Source of the DNA: Streptomyces cynarae
GTDB lineage: Bacteria > Actinomycetota > Actinomycetes > Streptomycetales > Streptomycetaceae
Reading direction: 5' to 3'
DNA: 64,000 nt
Assembly: GCF_025642135.1 (NCBI RefSeq)
Contig: NZ_CP106793.1
Location: forward strand, 992,001 to 1,056,000
Positions 52,449-64,000 of this stretch are shown here, in pieces (the stretch's first letter is position 1; every line of letters starts with the position of its first letter). Both the position numbers and the translations under genes were made by a program. The notes below the pieces were generated by a model. It saw nothing but the letters and a program-made list of their open reading frames with translations. It was not told the DNA's origin and made no database searches.

Positions 52449-53180
52449 CTACGCCTCGGCTCGCTCCAGCAGCTGGGGGCCGTTGTTCCGGACGTCGTTG
52501 ACGGCCGTGGAGACGGGGTGGGCGTCCAGACGGCCGTCCGCGGGAGGGTTCAGCAGGGCGCGCAGCCGGGCCGGGTCCTGGTGCGCGGGGTCGAGCCAGG
52601 CGTCCTGGTGGCCGGGGTCGACGGCCAGCGGCATCCGGGGGTGGATGCGGCCCGCGGCGTCGGTGGCCTCCGTGGTGAGGATGGTGCAGGTCGTCCACCA
52701 GGCGGAATCGTCGTCCTCGGCCGCCGAAGGGTCGCGCCAGAACTCGTACAGCCCCGCCAGGGCCATGACCTGACCGTCCTGCGGGCTGATGAAGTACGGC
52801 TGCTTGCGGGCCTTCCCCTTGCCGGTGGCCGGGATCTGCTGCCACTCGTAGAAGCCGTCGGCGGGCAGCAGACAGCGCCGCCTGACGAAGGCCAGGCGGA
52901 AGGCGGGCTTCTCGTGCACTGTCTCCATCCGCGCGTTGATCATCCTGGCGCCGATCTTCGGGTCCTTCGCCCAGGACGGCACCAGGCCCCACCGCAGCGG
53001 GCGCAACTGCCGCCGGACGGCTCCCGAGCCGTGAGGGGCGCGTTCGAGGACCGCCCACACGTCGTCCGTCGGAGCGACGTTCCAGCTCGGCGGCAGGTCG
53101 TCCCGCTGGTCCCAGTCGGTGACCCTGAACAGTCGTACGAGGTCCTGGGGGCCACGGGTGGAGACATATCGACCGCACAT
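52449..53180 (-). CDS. SOS response-associated peptidase (SRAP/YedK/HMCES family)
   Basis: A 243-residue protein that shields abasic sites in single-stranded DNA by a thiazolidine link from its N-terminal Cys2. Visible conserved residues: MCGRYVS with Cys2, SWNVAPTDDVW, RWGLVPSWAKD, INARMETV (Asn and Glu of the site), CLLPADGFYEW, and HPRMPL with the conserved His. Length is normal. The promoter region is AT-rich (TATACT/TAGTAT around 53208-53220). Divergent from the DUF4132 operon. Confidence 0.95.
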   Translation of the reverse strand: MCGRYVSTRGPQDLVRLFRVTDWDQRDDLPPSWNVAPTDDVWAVLERAPHGSGAVRRQLRPLRWGLVPSWAKDPKIGARMINARMETVHEKPAFRLAFVRRRCLLPADGFYEWQQIPATGKGKARKQPYFISPQDGQVMALAGLYEFWRDPSAAEDDDSAWWTTCTILTTEATDAAGRIHPRMPLAVDPGHQDAWLDPAHQDPARLRALLNPPADGRLDAHPVSTAVNDVRNNGPQLLERAEA

Positions 53181-53418: not shown

Positions 53419-56400
53419 GTGCGGCAGCGTTGGGAGTCGACGGAAGACGGTGCGGAAAAGGAGCCGTCCGGCGCCGGTGCGCAGGGGGCGGACGGGCACG
53501 GGCCCGTCGCGCTGCCCGACGAGGAGTCCTTCCGGATGCCTCCCGCCTGGCGGCGGCTGGTGTTTCCGCGGCGCGGCGGGATCGCGCGGAGCGTCGACGG
53601 CCTGCACCCCGAGGCCGAGGTGCGGGCGGCGCACCGGTTGAAGGAGGAGGCCGACTGGGTCGAGGCGATGCTCACCGCCCCGAAGAGCGACCCGCGGATC
53701 GTCGAGGCCACCCGCGCGCATCTGAACGGCAGCCACAACCCGTTGGGGGCTGCGGTGGTGGCATCGCTGACCTTCCACTGGCAGTATCCGGACGGCGTCT
53801 TCGTCGACGCCTGGGTCAGCGCGCACGGTCTGCCGTTCGCCGCGCAGGCGGTGGTGGAGTACTTCGACGTCGAGCCGCACTACATGCAGTACGGCGGTCG
53901 CCGTGAGGATCCCTGGCTCGGTTTCCGCGCGGGAGCCGCCGCCGACAGCGCCTGGGCGCGGCTGAAGTTCGCCGACCGGATGCGCGCCCTGCTGTCCGTT
54001 GCCGACGACGAGGCCTATCAGCAGACCGTCGATGCCCTGGCCCGCTGCCGGAGCGGCGTGCGCCGCCGCTTCGTCGTGTCGTATCTACTGCCCACCGAGC
54101 AGGCGTGGGTCGACGAGTGCTGCGCGGAGGTGGCGGCGGCCGACGCGAGGCTGCGAGAGATGCTGCTGTGCTCGCTGGGCTCCCCGGCGCAACTGGAGCC
54201 CTTCGGCCGGCGGCCCGGTCTCGGCTGGAGCGGCTGGTCCACCGCCCTGGTCGCCACGCTCGCCGAGGGCACCGGCAAGGCCTTCGCACCGCTCCTGGAC
54301 GAGGCCCTCGACCAGGCGTACGGATCCGACCGGGTCAAGGGTCTCGCCGGTGCCCTGGTGGAGCTGCCGACGGACGACGCCTTCCGTGTCCTGCTGGACC
54401 GAGTCGAGGACAAGCACGTCCGTCCCCACCTGCTGGAGGCGACGCGGCGCTACCCGGTGCGTGCGCTGCGGCTGCTCGGCGCGGCGGCGACCGGCCCCGG
54501 CAAGAACGCGTCCATGGCCGGCCAGTTGCTCGGCGCGCACGTCCGCGCCCACGCCGACCTGACCGCGGCCGTCCTGCACGACCTGCCCGCCGAGACGGCA
54601 GCCCTCGTCGAGCCGCTGCTCAGCCGCAGTGACCGGGTGGCCGACGCCCCCGCGCAGGCGCTGCCCCCGCTCCTGGTCGGCCCGCCGTGGACGACGAAGC
54701 GCAAGACCCGCAAGGCGCGTGTGGCCGCGGAGACGCCGGCGGCCCCGGAGGCGCAGGTCGCCTGGCAGCCGGGCGAGCAGCAGGCGTGGGCCGACACCGA
54801 GGGCTGGTATCGCGGGTGGCGCCGTCAGTACGGCTGGGCCGACGAGATCAAGGCCCTCCAGCAGGGCAGGCAGATGAAGAGTGTCCGGGACGTCGGGCTG
54901 TTCGTCGACGGACCCGAGGACGTGGTGCGCCCGCTGCTCGCCGAGTGCGCCCCGGAGGACTACTGGGACGGCGAGGCCGCGCTGAAGCCGGTCGCCGCCA
55001 AGTACGGGGTGGCCGCCCTGCCGCTGCTGCGGCGCGCCGCCGCCCGGCACCCGAGCACCCTCGGAGGGCTGCTGCTGCCCTATCGGAGCGTCGAGGTCGC
55101 CGAGTTGGTGTGCGACTGGCTGGCGCGGCTGAAGTCGGCCGACGCCACGGCCCGTGCCTGGCTGGCGCGGCACGGTCTGGACGCCGTCGCCGTGCTCGCA
55201 CCGCACGCGGTGGGCCCGGTCGGCGCGGTCCGGCGCGGCGCCGAGAAGGCGTTGCGGCTGGTGGCCGACGCCCACGGCGGCGAGGCGGTGCTGGCGGCCG
55301 TCGCCGGATGCGGCCCGGAGGCCGCGGTCATCGTCGAGGAGACGCTGTCCGCCGACCCGCTGGTCAGCGCCCTGCCCACGCGCATACCGGCTGTCGGTGC
55401 CTGGGCCGACCCCGCGCTGCTGCCGCAGATCCTGCTCACCGAGGGCGGCGCCCTGCCCGACCACGCTGTGCGCCACGCCTTGACGATCCTGGCGCTGTCC
55501 AAGCCCGGCGAGGTCTACCCGGGCCTGGAGGTGCTGACCGAGCACTGCACCGCCGACTCCCTCGCCGCTTTCGTCTGGGACCTGTTCGAGCAGTGGCGGC
55601 TGGCCGGGATGCCCGCCAAGGAGAGCTGGGCGCTGCATGCGCTCGGCTGGCTCGGGAACGACGACACGGTGCGCCGGCTCACCCCCGTGCTGCGGGCCTG
55701 GCCGGGCGAGGGCGCCCACCACCGCGCCGTGGAGGGACTGACCGTGCTGGCGAGCATCGGCACCGACGTGGCGCTGATGCATCTGCACGGAATCGCCCAG
55801 CGGGTGCCCTTCAAGGCGCTGAAGCTCCGCGCGCAGGAGAGGATCGCCGAGGTCGCCCAGGAGCTGGGGCTCACCGGCGAACAGCTGGGCGACCGGCTCG
55901 TGCCCGACCTCGGCCTCGACGCGAACGGCAGCACCGTCATCGACTACGGGCCCCGGCAGTTCACCGTCGGCTTCGACGAGCAGCTGCGCCCCTACGTCCG
56001 GGACGCCGACGGCAAGCCGCGCAAGGCCCTGCCCGCGCCCGGAGTCAAGGACGACCCGGAGCTGGCGCCGGCGGAGCGAAAGCGGTTCGCCGCGCTGAAG
56101 AAGGACGTCCGCACGATCGCCGCCGACCAGGTGCGGCGGCTGGAGGCGGCGATGGTGGCCCAGCGCACCTGGACCGCCGCGGAGTTCCGGGAGCTGTTCG
56201 TCGCCCACCCTCTGGTGTGGCACCTCGTCCGCCGCCTGGTGTGGCTCAGCGACGACGCACCCGGGGACGGCTCGGGCGGGACGAGGGCCTTCCGGGTGGC
56301 GGAGGACCGCACCTTCGCCGACGTCCACGACGACGAGTTGCCCCTGCCCGAGGAGGCCACCGTACGGGTGGCGCACCCGCTGCACCTGGGTGATGACCTG

Positions 56401-56838
56401 GCGGCCTGGTCGGAGCTGTTCGCCGACTACGAGATCCTCCAGCCGTTCCCTCAGCTGGGCCGGGCCGTGCACACGCTGACCGAGCAGGAGGCCGCCGGGC
56501 ACCGGCTGACCCGGTTCGAGGGCGCGACCGTACCGGTCGGCAAGCTGCTCGGCCTGACCAAGCGTGGCTGGGAGCGCGGCGAGCCGCAGGACGCGGGCGT
56601 GGAGCGCTGGTTCCACCGGCGGATCGACGACGGCCACTACGTGGTGATCGGACTCGACGAGGGGATCGCCGTGGGCGTGCCGGACATGTTCCCCGACCAG
56701 ACCTTCGAGACGGTCTGGCTCGACTCCCAGCCCTGTGACTACTGGCGGAGCCGGACATACCCGCTGCGCTTCGGCGCTCTGGACCCGGTCATCGCCTCCG
56801 AGATCCTCGCCGACCTGACGGAGGTGACCGCCAAGTGA
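53419..56838 (+). CDS. DUF4132 (MolR/YehI-like) protein
   Basis: A 1139-residue soluble protein, first gene of a five-gene set. The body (about 100-850) is built of alpha-helical, HEAT-like repeats (for example ARAWLARHGLDAVAVLAPHAV, RRGAEKALRLVADAHGGEAV). The C-terminal third (from about 880) carries the DUF4132 domain proper (ERKRFAALKKDVRTIAADQVRRLE, FRELFVAHPLVWHLVRRLVW, DYEILQPFPQLGRAVHTL). Function is unknown; E. coli YehI/MolR is the namesake. The GTG at 53419 follows GGAGGAGG; an open frame to 53248 is not conserved. The ATPase gene starts at an overlapping GTG. Confidence 0.88.
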   Translation: MRQRWESTEDGAEKEPSGAGAQGADGHGPVALPDEESFRMPPAWRRLVFPRRGGIARSVDGLHPEAEVRAAHRLKEEADWVEAMLTAPKSDPRIVEATRAHLNGSHNPLGAAVVASLTFHWQYPDGVFVDAWVSAHGLPFAAQAVVEYFDVEPHYMQYGGRREDPWLGFRAGAAADSAWARLKFADRMRALLSVADDEAYQQTVDALARCRSGVRRRFVVSYLLPTEQAWVDECCAEVAAADARLREMLLCSLGSPAQLEPFGRRPGLGWSGWSTALVATLAEGTGKAFAPLLDEALDQAYGSDRVKGLAGALVELPTDDAFRVLLDRVEDKHVRPHLLEATRRYPVRALRLLGAAATGPGKNASMAGQLLGAHVRAHADLTAAVLHDLPAETAALVEPLLSRSDRVADAPAQALPPLLVGPPWTTKRKTRKARVAAETPAAPEAQVAWQPGEQQAWADTEGWYRGWRRQYGWADEIKALQQGRQMKSVRDVGLFVDGPEDVVRPLLAECAPEDYWDGEAALKPVAAKYGVAALPLLRRAAARHPSTLGGLLLPYRSVEVAELVCDWLARLKSADATARAWLARHGLDAVAVLAPHAVGPVGAVRRGAEKALRLVADAHGGEAVLAAVAGCGPEAAVIVEETLSADPLVSALPTRIPAVGAWADPALLPQILLTEGGALPDHAVRHALTILALSKPGEVYPGLEVLTEHCTADSLAAFVWDLFEQWRLAGMPAKESWALHALGWLGNDDTVRRLTPVLRAWPGEGAHHRAVEGLTVLASIGTDVALMHLHGIAQRVPFKALKLRAQERIAEVAQELGLTGEQLGDRLVPDLGLDANGSTVIDYGPRQFTVGFDEQLRPYVRDADGKPRKALPAPGVKDDPELAPAERKRFAALKKDVRTIAADQVRRLEAAMVAQRTWTAAEFRELFVAHPLVWHLVRRLVWLSDDAPGDGSGGTRAFRVAEDRTFADVHDDELPLPEEATVRVAHPLHLGDDLAAWSELFADYEILQPFPQLGRAVHTLTEQEAAGHRLTRFEGATVPVGKLLGLTKRGWERGEPQDAGVERWFHRRIDDGHYVVIGLDEGIAVGVPDMFPDQTFETVWLDSQPCDYWRSRTYPLRFGALDPVIASEILADLTEVTAK

Positions 56839-57931
56839 CCGCCGCCGTCGAAGAGACCGGCGAGGCGCTGCTCCAGCGGCCGCCCGCCGAACTGCGCCAC
56901 GCCGACGAACTCGCCGCCCTGCGCGCGGCGGACGGCGATCCCCGTCCCCCGGCTGGCAGCTCAGCCTGCGGGCCGCCCGCCGCTTCATCGTCGGTGACGA
57001 ACAGGCGGGTGTCAGCCGCAAGTTCGTCGGCGACGTCTCCCTCGTGGAGCGGGCCCTGGTGACGCTGGCGACCAACCGCGGCCTGATGCTCGTGGGCGAG
57101 CCCGGCACCGCCAAGTCGCTGCTGTCGGAGCTGATCGCGGCGGCCGTCAGCGGCAGTTCCGCGCTCACGGTGCAGGGCGGTGCGGCCACCACGGAGGACC
57201 AGATCAAGTACTCCTGGAACTACGCCCTGCTGGTCTCCGAAGGTCCGTCCCCGCGCTCGCTGGTGCCCGCGCCGATGCTGCGCGGCATGGCGGAGGGCCG
57301 GATCGTACGCTTCGAGGAGATCACCCGCTGCCCGCTGGAGGTGCAGGACTGCCTGCTGTCCCTGCTGTCCGACCGGGTCATCACCATTCCTGAACTGGAC
57401 GGCCCGCAGGGCCTGGTCTTCGCCAAGCAGGGCTTCAACGTCATCGCCACCGCCAACACCCGCGACCGGGGCGTCAACGAGATGAGCGCCGCGCTCAAAC
57501 GGCGGTTCAACTTCGAGACGGTGTTCCCCATCGCCGACTTCGACACGGAGCTCGCCCTCGTCGAGGCCGAGGCCACGGCACTGCTGCGGCAGTCCGGGGT
57601 CGAGCCGCCGCCGCGCCGGGACGTGCTGGAGGTGCTGGTGGGCACCTTCCGCGAACTGCGGGGCAGCGCGGCGCAGGGCGAGCGGCTGTCCACGGTGATG
57701 AGCACCGCGGAGGCCGTGTCCGTGGCACACGCGGTCGGGGTACGGGCCTGGTTCCTGCGCGGGGAACCGGGCAGCGCCGCCGACGTGGTGGCGTGCCTCG
57801 CCGGTACGGCCGCCAAGGACAGCCCCGAGGACCTGGCCCGCCTGCGCCGCTTCCTTCAGCAGGAGGCGCCGCGCCGTGCCGGTCCGCAGTGGCAGGCCCT
57901 GTACGACGCACGTCACCTCATGGCCGGCTGA
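56835..57931 (+). CDS. MoxR-type AAA+ ATPase (YehL-like), one-base frameshift near the N terminus
   Basis: Corrected length is 365 residues. The GTG at 56835 overlaps the DUF4132 stop. Its frame (ETGEALLQRPPAELRHADEL) is lost at the CCCCC run at 56946-56950; one more C gives PPGWQLSLRAARRFIVGDEQ and joins the rest. I keep it as CDS because the ATPase core is intact in a 295-residue frame from 57044: Walker A GEPGTAKS, Walker B IVRFEEITR, sensor ATANTRDRGVNEMSAALKRR with arginine finger. In this family the ATPase works with a vWA partner, here encoded two genes later. Confidence 0.85.
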
Positions 57932-60300
57932 TGCCGGCCATGAGGTCGCCCGTCTTCCTCGGGGTCCGTCACCACTCCCCCGCCTGCGCCCGCCTGGTGG
58001 CCCGGACGATCGGCTCCCTGCGGCCGGCGTATGTGCTGGTGGAGGGGCCGGCGGACATGAACGACCGGCTGGAGGAACTGCTCCTCGGGCACACGCTGCC
58101 GATCGCCGTGTTCAGCCACTACCGCGACGAGCAGCGCGTGGCGACGTCCTGGACACCGCTGTGCGACTACTCCCCGGAGTGGATCGCCCTGCGGGAGGGG
58201 CGGGCGGCGGGAGCCCAGGTGCGCTTCATCGACCTGCCGGCCTGGCATCCGGCGCTCGCGGAGGGCGGCGACCGGTACGCCAACCGGTACGCGGACGCCG
58301 AGGCGAGGTACGCGGAGGCGACGACACGGCTGTGCACGCACTTCGCCGTCGATTCGGTGGACGCACTCTGGGACGGGTTGTTCGAGGTGACCGACCCGGG
58401 TGACGCCGACGGTTCCGGGGCCGGCGGCGAACCGGGCGATGCGGAGGACCTGCGTGCCCGGCTCGACGCCTACTTCTCCCTGGTGCGCGGCGACGCGGAG
58501 GCGGATCCGGGAGACCGGGCGCGCGAGGAGTACATGGCGTCCTGGGTGCGCGCCGCGCTCGCTCGGGCCGGAGACCGCCCGGTGCTGGTGGTCACCGGCG
58601 GCTTCCACCAGCCTGCGCTCCGCGCCCTGTCCGCCCTGCCGTCCCCGCAGGGGGCCGGCGGGGCCGACTGGCCGAGCGTGCCCGAACCGCCCGAGGGGGC
58701 GCTCGGCGGAAGCTTCCTGGTGCCGTACTCCTTCCACCGACTGGACGCCTTCGCCGGCTACCAGTCCGGCATGCCCTCGCCCGGCTACTACCAGCAACTG
58801 TGGGAGACGGACCCGGCAAACGCCGCGCGGGGTCTGCTGCGCGCGGTCACCGAGCGGCTGCGCACCCGTGGGATCCGGCTGTCGACGGCCGACCTGATCG
58901 CAGCCCGCACTCTGGCCCAGGGGCTGGCCCGGCTGCGCGGTCATCCGTACGAGACCCGGGTGGACGTCCTCGACGGCCTGGCCGGCGCCGTGATCGCGGA
59001 CGACCTGGACCGGCCGCTGCCGTGGACCACCCGAGGCACGCTCGGCGCCGGCACCCATCCGGTGGTGGTGGAGATGGTCGCCGCCTGCACCGGCGAGGCC
59101 GTGGGCCGGCTGCACCCGGACACCCCGCTGCCCCCGTTGGTGCACGACGTGGCCGCACACCTCGCCCGCCTGGGTCTGGCCGACGCCGACGCGCCGGTCA
59201 CTCTGGACCTGACGAAGGCGCCGGACCTGTCCCGCAGCCGCGCGCTGCACCGGCTGCGCGTGCTGGGCGTACCGGGCTTCAGCCGGGTCTCGGGCCCGGC
59301 CGACGGAGCCGACCCGGTGTTCACCGAGGTGTGGACGCCAGGGCCGGCAGCCCGGCGCGAGGCCGCTCTCATCGAGGCAGGCGCCTACGGAGCCCGCCTG
59401 GACGAGGCCGCCGCGGCGCTGCTCGGCGAGCGGATGCACGCGGCGGGCCCGGCGGTCGGTGCGCTGGCCGGGTTGCTGTTCGACGCGGTGCTGTGCGGGG
59501 TCGGGCCCCTCTGCGAGGACCTGCTGGTGTCCCTCGCGGCCCGGGTGGGACAGGTCGGCGACCTGGGGTCGCTCGGCGAGGTGCTGGCGGCGACGCTCGG
59601 CCTGTGGCGGCACGACCGGGTGTTCGGCGTGGCCCGCGACCGGCTGCTCGGAGCTGTGGTCGGCGGCGCCGCCGACCGGGTGTTCTGGCTGGCGGAGGGC
59701 CTGCACGGCGACCGCGGCGCGGACCTTCCCCGGCTGCGTGCCATGGCGGCCGCGCGGGACGCGCTGCGGCACGCGCCCGACCTGATGTCGGTCACCCCGC
59801 AGGCCGCCGCCGAGGCCGCCGCGCGCATCAGCCGCGATCCGCGCGCCCCAGCCGATCTGCGCGGCGCCGCCTTCGGGCTGCGCTGGGCCCTGGGCGTCCC
59901 GGGCGATCCCGGACCGGTGGTGCAGGCGCTGGCCTCGGCCGCCGTGGACACCCTCGGCGACTGGCTGACCGGCCTGTTCGCCGTGGCCCGTGAGGAGGTG
60001 GCGCGGGCCACTGGGACTGGCGAGGACTCCCTGGTCGACGTCGTGGACGGCGTCGTATCGGCGATGGCCGAGGGCGACTTTCTCACCGGCCTGCCCGCGC
60101 TCCGGCAAGCCTTCGCCTTCTTCCCGCCCCGCGAACGGGAGCGCATCGCCGAACACCTGCTGCACCGCCGCGGCCTGCGCGGCTCGGCGCGCTCCCTGCT
60201 GCGCACCTCCGCCGACCCCCTGCTGCAGGCCCGTGCCCGGGCCCTGGAGGAGAACGTGATCCAACTGCTCGACCGCCACGGCCTGGGGGCACCCCGATGA
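57931..60300 (+). CDS. DUF5682 (YehM-like) protein
   Basis: A 789-residue soluble protein. The N-terminal FLGVRHHSPACARLVARTI and YVLVEGPADMNDRLEELLL, with DLPAWHPALAEGG and VLVVTGGFHQPALRAL, is an alpha/beta domain recalling ChaN/TraB-like erythromycin-esterase folds with His/Glu clusters, so an enzymatic activity is possible. The rest (about 330-789) is helical. TGATG overlap with the ATPase stop, ATGA overlap with the vWA gene. Function is unknown; it is constant in the MoxR-vWA-SWIM clusters. Confidence 0.87.
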   Translation: MPAMRSPVFLGVRHHSPACARLVARTIGSLRPAYVLVEGPADMNDRLEELLLGHTLPIAVFSHYRDEQRVATSWTPLCDYSPEWIALREGRAAGAQVRFIDLPAWHPALAEGGDRYANRYADAEARYAEATTRLCTHFAVDSVDALWDGLFEVTDPGDADGSGAGGEPGDAEDLRARLDAYFSLVRGDAEADPGDRAREEYMASWVRAALARAGDRPVLVVTGGFHQPALRALSALPSPQGAGGADWPSVPEPPEGALGGSFLVPYSFHRLDAFAGYQSGMPSPGYYQQLWETDPANAARGLLRAVTERLRTRGIRLSTADLIAARTLAQGLARLRGHPYETRVDVLDGLAGAVIADDLDRPLPWTTRGTLGAGTHPVVVEMVAACTGEAVGRLHPDTPLPPLVHDVAAHLARLGLADADAPVTLDLTKAPDLSRSRALHRLRVLGVPGFSRVSGPADGADPVFTEVWTPGPAARREAALIEAGAYGARLDEAAAALLGERMHAAGPAVGALAGLLFDAVLCGVGPLCEDLLVSLAARVGQVGDLGSLGEVLAATLGLWRHDRVFGVARDRLLGAVVGGAADRVFWLAEGLHGDRGADLPRLRAMAAARDALRHAPDLMSVTPQAAAEAAARISRDPRAPADLRGAAFGLRWALGVPGDPGPVVQALASAAVDTLGDWLTGLFAVAREEVARATGTGEDSLVDVVDGVVSAMAEGDFLTGLPALRQAFAFFPPRERERIAEHLLHRRGLRGSARSLLRTSADPLLQARARALEENVIQLLDRHGLGAPR

Positions 60301-61496
60301 ACTCCACGCTGCCCGAACCGGCGCCGGAGCCGTCCGGCGCACCGTCGGCCCCCGACCCCGGCCTGGAGCGCTGGCGGCTCGTCCTGGGCGCCGCCGCCGA
60401 ACGCTGCACCGGCCCCCTGCACGGCGCGGCCGCCGCGCGGGACGCCGCCCTGGAGTGGCTCTACGGCCGCGACGACGACCTGCGCCGACGCGGGGTGCGC
60501 CGCGGTACGGCGGACTCCCGCGAGGCCGGCACCGGCCCGTCCCGACCGACCGCGGTCGACTGGCTGGACGACATCCACCGCCTCTTCCCCAAGACGACGG
60601 TGGAACGGCTGGAGCGCGACGCGGTGGAGCGGTACCAGATCCATGAGATCGTCACCGACCCGGACGTCCTCGCCCGCGTGGAACCGAGCCAGACCCTCCT
60701 GCGCGCCGTCCTGCGCACCAAGCACCTGATGAACCCCGAGGTGCTGGCGGCGGCCCGGCGGATCGTCGAGACGGTCGTACGGCAGCTGATGGAGCGTCTG
60801 CGGCCACAGGTGCGGCGCGCGTTCACCGGTTCCCGCTCCCGCCGCCCCAGCCGGCTGCCGATCGCCCGGGACTTCGACTTCCGCGCCACCATCCGCGCCA
60901 ACCTCGCCCACTACCAGCCCGAGGAGCGCCGCATTCTCATCGAGCGGCCGCACTTCCACTCCCGCACCCGCCGCCACCTGGAACAGTGGCAACTGGTGCT
61001 GCTGGTCGACCAGTCCGGCTCCATGGCCGGCTCGGTGATCCACTCGGCGGTCACGGCCGCCTGCCTGTGGAGCCTGCCGGGGCTGAAGACGCACCTGGTC
61101 GCCTTCGACACCGCGGTGGTCGACCTGACCTCCGACGTGACCGACCCGGTGGAACTGCTGATGCGGGTACAGCTCGGCGGCGGCACCGACATCGCGCGGG
61201 CCGTCGACTACGGCGCCTCGCTGGTCGAGAACCCGCGGCGGGCCATCGTCGCCCTCGTGTCCGACTTCTACGAGGGCGGCGACCCGTACCGCCTGGTGCG
61301 CACCGTGCGGCACCTCGTCGAGCAGGGCACGACCGTGCTGTGCCTGGCCGCCCTCGACGAGGCCGCCGATCCCGTCTACGACCGTGCCCTGGCCGGGAGG
61401 CTGGCCGAGGCGGGTGCCCCGGTGGGCGCGATGACGCCGGGCGCGCTCGCGGAGTTCGTCGCCGAGCACATCGGCCGGGGAGGGCAGGCCCGATGA
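60297..61496 (+). CDS. vWA domain protein (YehP-like)
   Basis: A 399-residue protein. Residues about 85-230 are a helical region with DDIHRLFPKTTVERLERDAVE. The von Willebrand A domain (232-399) has a complete metal-dependent adhesion site: D238-x-S240-x-S242 (LVDQSGSMAG), T297 (GGGTDIA) and D323 (VSDFYEGGD). In MoxR-vWA pairs the ATPase remodels complexes held by the vWA protein. ATGA overlaps at both ends show strict co-translation. Confidence 0.92.
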   Translation: MNSTLPEPAPEPSGAPSAPDPGLERWRLVLGAAAERCTGPLHGAAAARDAALEWLYGRDDDLRRRGVRRGTADSREAGTGPSRPTAVDWLDDIHRLFPKTTVERLERDAVERYQIHEIVTDPDVLARVEPSQTLLRAVLRTKHLMNPEVLAAARRIVETVVRQLMERLRPQVRRAFTGSRSRRPSRLPIARDFDFRATIRANLAHYQPEERRILIERPHFHSRTRRHLEQWQLVLLVDQSGSMAGSVIHSAVTAACLWSLPGLKTHLVAFDTAVVDLTSDVTDPVELLMRVQLGGGTDIARAVDYGASLVENPRRAIVALVSDFYEGGDPYRLVRTVRHLVEQGTTVLCLAALDEAADPVYDRALAGRLAEAGAPVGAMTPGALAEFVAEHIGRGGQAR

Positions 61497-63490
61497 CCCG
61501 TGCGGACCTGCTCGTGCTCACGCCGGAGACCCTCGCGTCGCTCGCCAACCGCGGCCTCGTCAAACGCGCCGAGAAGGACCTGGCGGCCGGCTCCGGGCCG
61601 GTGGTGACGACCGGCGACGACGGCACCGTACGCGGCGCCTTCCCGGACGGCACGGAAGCCGCGCTCCCTGCGGGCATCGCCCTGGAGGCCGCCGACTGCA
61701 GCTGCGCCGCACCGGGCGTGTGCCGGCACCGGATCGCGCTGGTGCTGGCCTACCAGCGATCCGCGCCCTCGGCGCCGGACGACACGCAGGTGGCCGAGGA
61801 GCCGTTCACCGACTGGTCGCCGGCCGAGTTCGACGACGACGGGCTGGCGACGGCGCTGGGCCGCCCCGCCGTGACCGCCGCCCGCCGCACCAGGGAGCGC
61901 GGCTACACGGCCCGTGTGCACCGTCCCACCGCCACCGACCCGGCGCCTCGCGTGGAACTGCCCACCTGCACCGTCCGCTTCCCGGTCCCGCACGAACTGG
62001 GCTACGCCCTCTCCGACGCGGCGGCTCCGCTGCGCGGCGAGGTCGTCACCCTGGCGGTCTGGGCGTTCCGCGCCGCGGACGCCGAACAAGCGGAGGAAGT
62101 GACCGTCGGTGGCCGTACGACCGCCCCGGCCGGAGCCGACGACGCGCTACGCGCGGCCGTGGCACTCGCCGACGAACTCCTCCTGGACGGCGTGCAACAG
62201 GCCGGGCCGGTCTTCACCGGCTCACTACGCCGCGCCGAACAGGCGCTGACCGCCGTCTCCCACCACTGGCCCGCCGGCGCGGTGGCCGACCTGCGGGACC
62301 AGTTGGAGGCCTACGCGGCCCGCGCCAGTCGCTACGCGCCCGAACGCCTGGCCCTGCTCCTTGCCGAACTGCACGCCCGGCACCGCGGGGCCGATCGCAA
62401 CCGGGTCGGCGTGCTGGGCACCTCGGAGGCACCGGTGACACCGCTGCGGCGGGTGCGTCTGGTGGCGCTGGGTTGCCGGATCGGCGGCACCGCCCGGGAC
62501 CGTACGGCCGAGACGTACTTCGCGCACGCCGACGCCGGCACCGTGCTGGTCCTGCGCAAGCGGTGGGAGCTGACGGGAGATCAGGCACCCACCGGCCACG
62601 AGCTGTCGACGCGCCGCCTGCTCGGTTCACCGCTGCGCGCGCTGGCCACGGCCAACGTCGTCAGCGAGCACACCGCACGGGCCGCCGACCGCACAGTCGT
62701 CCTCTCGCGGGGCCGGATCGCCGCGACCAGCATCACACCCGTCGGCTCCGCATGGACGGAACTGCCGGACAGGCTGCTGCTGCGGGACACCGCCGCACAT
62801 CTGCGGGAGGCCGGCGAACGTCCACCACGTCTGATCCGTCCCCGGGTCGAGGCGGATGCGGTACGGGTCATCGCGGTCGACACCGTGGACGACATCGGCT
62901 ACGACCCCGCCGGGCAGCGCCTGGAAGCGGTGCTGCGCGATCCCGCGGGCAACCCCGTCCACCTCCGTGCCGAGTACAACCCGCTGTGCCCCGGTGGCCT
63001 GGACGCCCTGGCCGCCGCGCTGGCCGACGGCGAGGTCCACTGCGTCAGCGGCATGCTGGGCCGGGGCCGCGGCCGGATCGTCCTGGACCCGCTGGCCGTC
63101 CTCACCTCTGAGGGCGTCACCGTCCCGGACTTGGCCCCGGGCGAGGGCGACACCAGGCTCACCACGATCCGCCCCCGCCCGTCCGACCCGATCACGACGA
63201 CCCTCGAGTCGGCACTCACCGCCCTGGCCGACGCGGCCCATCACGGCCTGCGCCACCTCACCGGCACGTCCCGCACCACCCTCGCGGACACTGCCACACA
63301 CCTGCGCCGCACCGGCCTGCGCACCGCCGCCCGCCTCGTGGACGCCCTGACCGGCGCCCTGCACACCCAGGGCGCGACGGCGGCCGTCCCCCACTGGGTG
63401 GCTGCCCACATCCACCTGACGACGAGCCTGGACCTGCACCAGGAGAACGCACTGGAGACACCGGTGGCGGAAAGGGGAGGCAGCCACTGA
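61493..63490 (+). CDS. SWIM zinc-finger protein (YehQ-like)
   Basis: A 665-residue protein. The SWIM motif is C69-x-C71 and C77-x-H79 (CSCAAPGVCRH) after a beta hairpin (DDGTVRGAFPDGTEAAL). SWIM fingers bind nucleic acid or protein. The remaining 550 residues show no known enzyme motif; beta-rich parts (about 370-560) include VLVLRKRWELTGD and FAHADAGTVLVLRK. Last gene of the coupled set; no hairpin obvious just after it. Confidence 0.88.
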   Translation: MTRADLLVLTPETLASLANRGLVKRAEKDLAAGSGPVVTTGDDGTVRGAFPDGTEAALPAGIALEAADCSCAAPGVCRHRIALVLAYQRSAPSAPDDTQVAEEPFTDWSPAEFDDDGLATALGRPAVTAARRTRERGYTARVHRPTATDPAPRVELPTCTVRFPVPHELGYALSDAAAPLRGEVVTLAVWAFRAADAEQAEEVTVGGRTTAPAGADDALRAAVALADELLLDGVQQAGPVFTGSLRRAEQALTAVSHHWPAGAVADLRDQLEAYAARASRYAPERLALLLAELHARHRGADRNRVGVLGTSEAPVTPLRRVRLVALGCRIGGTARDRTAETYFAHADAGTVLVLRKRWELTGDQAPTGHELSTRRLLGSPLRALATANVVSEHTARAADRTVVLSRGRIAATSITPVGSAWTELPDRLLLRDTAAHLREAGERPPRLIRPRVEADAVRVIAVDTVDDIGYDPAGQRLEAVLRDPAGNPVHLRAEYNPLCPGGLDALAAALADGEVHCVSGMLGRGRGRIVLDPLAVLTSEGVTVPDLAPGEGDTRLTTIRPRPSDPITTTLESALTALADAAHHGLRHLTGTSRTTLADTATHLRRTGLRTAARLVDALTGALHTQGATAAVPHWVAAHIHLTTSLDLHQENALETPVAERGGSH

Positions 63491-63558
63491 TGTCAGGCGG
63501 TGTCACGGGCGTCGGCAGCCGCCGCCCCCGGCGGGCGGCCGGACGGCGCCGGGCGGCG

Positions 63559-63711
63559 TCACCGAGGGAAAGCCATGCGGAACAGGTCCCAGGCGGTCGC
63601 GTCACCGACTGCCGCGCTGCCGCCCTGCGCGGCTCGCACACGCCGGTACGCCGACTCCGTGAACGCGGTACCGGATCGCGCCGGTTCGGAGTCGACCGGG
63701 ATCATCTCCAC
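63559..63711 (-). CDS. Possible small protein of 50 aa, unknown
   Basis: GTG at 63711 behind GGAAGGAAGG gives a 50-residue peptide with SAYRRVRAAQGGSAAVGDAT and a C-terminal AWDLFRMAFPR. No family recognised, and a longer frame to 63897 has no support. The Shine-Dalgarno and the less arginine-biased composition argue for a real gene; otherwise evidence is thin. The remaining 289 bp to the right edge hold nothing I can support. Confidence 0.35.
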   Translation of the reverse strand: MEMIPVDSEPARSGTAFTESAYRRVRAAQGGSAAVGDATAWDLFRMAFPR

Positions 63712-64000
63712 GGACACCCCTTCCTTCCGTACGCGCCGTCCAGGGACCGACGGCCCACACGGCGCGCGAGCGTGGTACCGCCCGGCAGGGCCACGGTTCG
63801 CCCAGACGGACCCGACCCGACCCCGCAGCCTGCCACCCCGGCACCCCGCACGCGCTCCCGCCCCGCATACGCGCCGCACCGACTCCCACGCGTCCACCCG
63901 AACGGCCCAACGCGGCCGAGCCGTCCGGATCGCCGCGGTTCCGCGCTCTCAGTCGGCCCCCTTCTCCCCCTCACCCCTGCGCACCCCCGTCGGAACGGCC

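Follow-up and report, generated by a model that had tools for sequence, protein, structure and literature searches.

A conserved five-gene MoxR-vWA-DUF5682 operon of a streptomycete carries a candidate TraB-type hydrolase domain

The window analysed here is a 64,000-nucleotide stretch (C1:992001-1056000) of a 9.36 Mb Streptomyces genome assembled in two contigs. At 53419-63490, it contains five adjacent genes on the + strand (g1-g5) that encode a DUF4132 protein, a MoxR AAA+ ATPase, a DUF5682 protein, a vWA protein and a SWIM-type protein. The operon is real, ancient and conserved and belongs to a known but uncharacterised kind. We propose, with a probability of roughly 0.4, that its MoxR-vWA pair is a remodeller that controls a TraB-fold hydrolase and that the target is selected by helical-repeat, WGR and SWIM parts. 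Family membership supports the remodeller part well. New here are fusions of DUF5682 to vWA or to MoxR and, probably, a TraB-type candidate active site in DUF5682, with invariant residues joined to a helical repeat. The candidate active site, the fusions and the defined five-part set make an old puzzle experimentally testable.

The five components are kept together over great phylogenetic distances in permuted orders. Named genomes were scanned with a MoxR alignment and the best 80 YehL-type loci were kept, several of the incomplete ones being short contigs; profiles built here detected all five components in 68 of the 80. The complete loci carry eight phylum-level labels (Pseudomonadota, Actinomycetota, Bacillota, Cyanobacteriota, the separately labelled Melainabacteria, Verrucomicrobiota, Planctomycetota and Spirochaetota). 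The order DUF4132-MoxR-DUF5682-vWA-SWIM is the commonest (27 loci, plus 12 with two DUF4132 matches), and MoxR-DUF5682-vWA-DUF4132-SWIM (11 loci) and vWA-SWIM-DUF4132-MoxR-DUF5682 (5 loci) are also found. The window matches this YehL-type cluster, with a MoxR of the YehL type beside DUF5682, vWA, SWIM and DUF4132; the ATPase gene is broken in the window assembly and intact in nine relatives.

The E. coli cluster yehI-yehK-yehL-yehM-yehP-yehQ contains the five families in the window's order, and the window DUF5682 protein is 36% identical to YehM. The preliminary description of the window had equated its gene order with yehI-L-M-P-Q. The family order holds, but yehI and yehL are separated by a 105-amino-acid gene, yehK. 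The E. coli cluster also differs in an upstream PF05406 (WGR) gene, yehF, in a second SWIM-like motif in YehQ and in having no overlap at the yehI-yehK, yehK-yehL and yehL-yehM junctions. With at least 80% query coverage, yehLM is found in 5164 of 5426 E. coli genomes and is near-fixed, whereas the five-gene set is sporadic in the window's genus. We take the yehH/yehI locus to be molR. In a DUF5682 tree of 83 rows, the window clade groups with YehM (Shimodaira-Hasegawa-like approximate likelihood ratio test, 99) and lies away from the 74 rows retrieved with the other query. This supports the likeness to the yeh cluster but, given the length of the E. coli branch, falls short of proof. The MoxR subfamilies that have been named include YehL (excerpts of PMC3893208 and PMC11432383). 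Searches of the open literature returned no functional study of YehL or yehLM, no paper pairing DUF4132 with MoxR and none naming DUF5682; papers naming at least two yeh genes are, by title, genome descriptions or unrelated.

The DUF5682 protein (g3) consists of a TraB/Tiki-like α/β domain (residues ~1-243) and a helical repeat (residues ~430-780). Residues H14/H15, E38, R198 and H226 are invariant in 81 of 81 DUF5682 sequences, and this His-Glu-Arg-His set has the same order as the catalytic set, as compared with EreC residues. The possible hydrolase of the preliminary description thereby keeps its standing, as the N-terminus appears hydrolase-like and its candidate active-site residues are fixed. 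The structural model is favourable and suggests that the N-terminus resembles a TraB/Tiki-type domain; sequence profiles alone give no proof of kinship. With the erythromycin esterase/TraB/Tiki/ChaN group, DUF5682 would share the modelled fold and the His-Glu-Arg-His set. Unlike that group, it has no significant profile match, carries a long helical repeat and sits in an AAA+/vWA operon. DUF5682 is fused to vWA in one locus layout (L067, L068 and L075) and to MoxR in another protein (P0029).

The g2-g4 pair resembles known remodellers. The profile of g2 relatives matches both Midasin and NorQ, and a vWA partner with a metal-ion-dependent adhesion site (MIDAS) is likewise present in the NorQ-NorD and Midasin systems, to which the window set adds DUF5682, SWIM and giant helical-repeat proteins. 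NorQD is a MoxR-vWA pair that remodels clients via a finger-in-pore arrangement (PMC13036017, excerpts). The PGTAK and EE[IVL][TS]R motifs occur in all 80 sampled loci, which were chosen partly by the first motif. The g4 protein displays MIDAS-type residues (DQSGS at 238, GGGTD at 294 and VSDFY at 321), in agreement with the MIDAS-bearing vWA named in the preliminary description; among 73 sampled vWA proteins, 61 have the D-x-SGS form and 59 have GGGT[DN].

In the window assembly, the ATPase gene is interrupted by a frame break between 56835 and 57044, which the preliminary description overlooked. The frame that starts at GTG 56835 encodes a conserved MoxR N-terminus for ~40 residues and then departs from the ATPase frame, in which GTG 57044 is the first start. 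When an intact relative was searched against the whole genome, g2 was matched as two overlapping pieces in two frames (residues 1-41 and 36-365), and the only further matches were one weak one and the core MoxR at 5.32 Mb (45% identity). The g2 homologue is unbroken in nine related loci, and the break is private to the window assembly among the ten compared. Relative to the closest locus (L036), the ATPase part has 15 synonymous and 4 non-synonymous codon changes; the break is therefore either recent or an assembly or sequencing error. Given this break, the window copy of the operon may be inactive.

The g1 protein is the helical-repeat giant that had been predicted. Its AlphaFold2 model (predicted local distance difference test score, 82.9; predicted template-modelling score, 0.66) is long and mostly helical, with a HEAT-like solenoid (residues ~63-827) and a poorly modelled DUF4132 domain (residues 865-1051). 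Its structure-match lists (Foldseek, VIA) contain mostly helical-repeat proteins; the best Foldseek matches are HEAT-type proteins with E-values of 2.7e-4 and up and low template-modelling scores. Of 120 g1 homologues among the matches listed, 83 bear an N-terminal WGR label, counted by eye. In g5, the nucleic-acid-type zinc finger claimed earlier stands as a motif (C69-x-C71...C77-x-H79; CxC...CxH invariant in 36 of 36 aligned homologues) but not as a Pfam assignment, the SWIM score falling under the cut-off. A loose form of the motif is present in 67 of 69 sampled loci, and 12 of 69 sampled SWIM proteins carry it twice by the loose search. The second C-x-C...C-x-H motif of YehQ (L051 13101-14945) does not occur in the aligned Streptomyces proteins.

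Among 150 same-genus genomes, long g1 relatives (main piece at least 840 bits) occur in 16, including the window genome (G000), and any g1 match occurs in 45, mostly as a separate, shorter DUF4132 protein. Complete five-gene sets were found in nine genomes, counting the window despite its broken g2; the other eight sets are L036, L038, L039 and L041-L045. This number is a lower bound because only the loci with a long g1 (the window and 15 others) were inspected, and at this count the distribution is sporadic, in keeping with the reading given in the preliminary description. The remaining loci comprise a contig fragment with g1-g2-g3 (L049), a disrupted locus in which a truncated g3 lies next to genes with chorismate-binding and PhzG-type matches (L040), and five with g1 alone in the stretch examined (L037, L046, L047, L048 and L050). 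The L037 contig ends <1 kb downstream, and the flanks of L046 resemble those of L042-L045, with g2-g5 absent. The five genes are inherited together: their identity matrices over nine loci correlate with r values of 0.865-0.977, with MoxR the most conserved and g1 and g5 the least. L039 also encodes a DUF4132-DUF7737 protein, with trypsin-like and PknG-like genes downstream.

A divergent sister set is far more widespread in the genus. DUF5682 is matched in 146 of the 150 genomes, and the best copy has an E-value of ~1e-226 or lower in 138. The best copy of the window genome lies at C1:5322262; the one inside the window has a score of 337 bits. The former belongs to a second, core-type set (L033 3273-11713; G000:C1 ~5.317-5.326 Mb) that the preliminary description had missed. 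There, SWIM and DUF5691 genes are divergent from MoxR-DUF5682-vWA, which is followed by sucC, and a B12-binding protein is encoded on the other side. The MoxR, DUF5682 and vWA proteins are 41, 31 and 41% identical to those of the window. The core set, found in most same-genus genomes, differs in that DUF5691 replaces DUF4132 and that the SWIM and DUF5691 genes are divergent. MoxR and vWA flank DUF5682 in 17 of 18 core-type loci of the genus (L003-L012 and L052-L059, with L012 cut by a contig end) and in 7 of 7 loci from other actinobacterial families (L060-L066). SWIM, DUF5691, MoxR, DUF5682 and vWA are collinear in L073 and L074, and SWIM and DUF5691 match one frame in L071. A third layout (L067, L068 and L075; Pfam scan on L067 only) contains a small DUF4132 protein, a giant of 1659-1699 amino acids, MoxR, a DUF5682-vWA fusion and a protein of 580-612 amino acids. 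The 1659-residue giant of L067 (1682-6661), between the small DUF4132 protein and MoxR, has no Pfam match over cut-off. A fourth layout (L069) contains vWA, MoxR and a distant DUF5682 that scores 99 bits in one search and 130 bits in another and is absent from the hmmscan list. At the phylum level, DUF5682 is found in 17 of 198 actinobacterial genomes. The window genome also has a separate 838-amino-acid DUF4132 protein (L034 5442-7958; G000:C1 ~5.85 Mb), with no other set gene within the surrounding 14 kb.

In the proposed mechanism, the YehL-type MoxR ring of g2 and its g4 vWA partner would form a NorQ-NorD-like protein remodeller powered by ATP, and g3 would be its dedicated partner, a TraB/Tiki-fold hydrolase. 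Recognition of a target or trigger, which is probably a damaged complex or nucleic acid, would fall to g5 and to g1, most listed relatives of which have WGR. By turning over ATP, g2-g4 would either open the hydrolase domain or its target or shift its position, and cleavage would be confined to the state in which the sensor is engaged. Deinococcus DUF4132 and WGR genes are strongly induced upon DdrO depletion (PMC8533742, excerpts), which by analogy hints at DNA damage as the trigger. A more specific form, in which DUF5682 is a TraB-fold intracellular peptidase opened by the AAA+/MIDAS motor and the WGR/HEAT giant and SWIM protein read nucleic-acid or DNA-damage signals, is doubtful; if true, it would make the operon a class of ATP-gated hydrolase machine that extends over ~8 phyla, is near-fixed in E. 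coli and has no description that we found. Several observations weigh against the proposed mechanism. Comparison of the DUF5682 N-terminus by hhalign, with few sequences on the TraB/Ere side, gave p values of 0.15 and 0.13 for Ere (the second off the motifs), 0.027 over 16 columns for YbaP, and 0.5 and 0.82 for another TraB, with controls at 0.12-0.62. Foldseek found no match of the DUF5682 model in the PDB at E-values up to 1e-3, and 73 of 81 sequences have P at position 11 of the first GX2H motif. Proteins of the TraB/Ere fold are not always hydrolases, as ChaN binds haem. Furthermore, the window g1 lacks the N-terminal WGR domain, an absence overlooked in the preliminary description, g2 is frame-broken in this assembly, and a simple-pattern search upstream of g1 at ten loci yielded no damage box.

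An unlikely alternative is a cofactor- or metal-insertion chaperone in the style of NorQD or CoxDE. MoxR and vWA would then bring a metalloenzyme to maturity, and DUF5682 would bind its cofactor, much as ChaN does haem, instead of cleaving a substrate. The g4 protein belongs to the VWA_CoxE family, and its MIDAS-type vWA adjoins MoxR, as in metal-insertion chaperones. NorQD inserts iron (PMC13036017, excerpts), and E. coli molR, which maps to 47.3 min (PMC4245954, excerpts), is named after molybdate use (PMC8533742 and PMC4245954, excerpts). Past the right end of the window, downstream of the five genes, are genes for the small and large subunits of a NiFe hydrogenase (L035 8299-11222). However, the 368-amino-acid gene that precedes the hydrogenase is found in 65 of 150 genomes, of which just G000 and G144 have it next to the five-gene set. 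It coexists with g1 in nine genomes, where the two are adjacent in those two, on separate contigs in four and 0.2-5.2 Mb apart in three; with the hydrogenase as a neighbour in 2 of these 9 genomes, no consistently adjacent client metalloenzyme gene was found. Inspection by eye of the 25 largest clusters of neighbours around the 80 loci, the largest of which cover 10 of 80, revealed no metalloenzyme either, and Deinococcus moeA and moeB are unchanged alongside the DUF4132 genes (PMC8533742, excerpts). It is distinctly unlikely that the five subunits form a non-catalytic assembly or quality-control scaffold, one chaperone complex with a purely structural TraB-like domain. Such a role has a precedent in ciliates, whose complex IV includes a TraB-family protein as an accessory subunit (PMC10060162, excerpts), and would suit g1 and the C-terminal half of g3, which are mostly helical repeats; against it, the full candidate active-site set is invariant in 81 of 81 sequences.

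The reading of the operon as an anti-phage or conflict system with DUF5682 as the effector is weak and improbable. The sporadic occurrence of the five-gene set in the genus, its varied positions and its HEAT, WGR and SWIM parts fit this reading, as do divergent upstream SNF2 helicases that match DrmD/DpdE models in L039 (1-4578) and L040 (15509-17713), an NB-ARC/TPR gene 3 kb away in L067, and the 34 records with a DUF5682 match, some of them chromosome-sized, in a plasmid collection of 72,556. PADLOC, however, matched the five proteins only twice and weakly, both times in the MoxR piece (E-values of 0.034 and 0.082), and matched none of ten window-flank proteins at 1e-5. The 97 flanking proteins of ten loci matched 63 PADLOC families, and the best 25 of the 63 trace to one helicase and one kinase. 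A single phage record has a DUF5682 match, and the candidate effector is invariant rather than swapped. The presence of DUF5682 in 146 of 150 same-genus genomes and of yehLM in 95% of E. coli genomes resembles physiology, not a typical defence system. The MoxR-vWA ternary conflict systems (Kaur et al., eLife 2020), with which the preliminary description associated the operon, share the MoxR and vWA core. They have a varied series of effectors, whereas window-type loci repeat the same five families (68 of 80 loci). A Pfam scan of the five proteins at E-values up to 1 returned no VMAP, iSTAND, FtsH or beta-propeller third component, and the bpMoxR match reached 14.1 bits against a cut-off of 27. 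The terms 'yeh', 'SWIM' and 'DUF4132' are absent from the main text of that article as far as excerpted. With no third component matched and weak PADLOC matches, the proposed membership is not supported.

The places and families of the five genes (Table 1) agree with those given earlier, as judged from a Pfam scan in which SWIM is below its cut-off.

Table 1. Genes of the operon in the window
Gene	Product	Position	Strand	Details
g1	DUF4132 protein	53419..56838	+	1139 aa, GTG start; Pfam 216 bits
g2	YehL-subfamily MoxR AAA+ ATPase	56835..57931	+	frame-broken; AAA_5/MoxR 121 bits, part from 57044
g3	DUF5682 protein	57931..60300	+	789 aa; Pfam 337 bits
g4	VWA_CoxE-type protein	60297..61496	+	399 aa; Pfam 193 bits
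g5	SWIM-type protein	61493..63490	+	665 aa; Pfam SWIM 15.3 bits, cut-off 19.6

All four junctions had been described as overlapping by 1-4 bases. This is correct for 2/3 (1 base), 3/4 (4 bases) and 4/5 (4 bases), but the GTGA overlap at 1/2 leads into the broken MoxR frame, which encodes only ~40 residues of the MoxR N-terminus. In eight complete relatives, with start codons picked by a coding-score gene caller, overlaps occur at 4/5 in 8, at 1/2 in 6, and at 2/3 and 3/4 in 5 each. The caller was trained on the five window genes and therefore provides no independent test of them; it also yields plausible gene sets elsewhere. It starts the MoxR gene only at GTG 57044, and the open frame at 63490-63999, which has no Pfam match, goes uncalled. 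The closest named relative of the window DUF5682 protein (92% identity) is from Streptomyces cynarae. Immediately upstream of g1 and divergent from it is an SOS-response-associated peptidase (SRAP) gene (52449-53180, - strand). None was noticed in the gene lists inspected for other relatives, apart from L036, where a look-alike is seen by eye at the same site.

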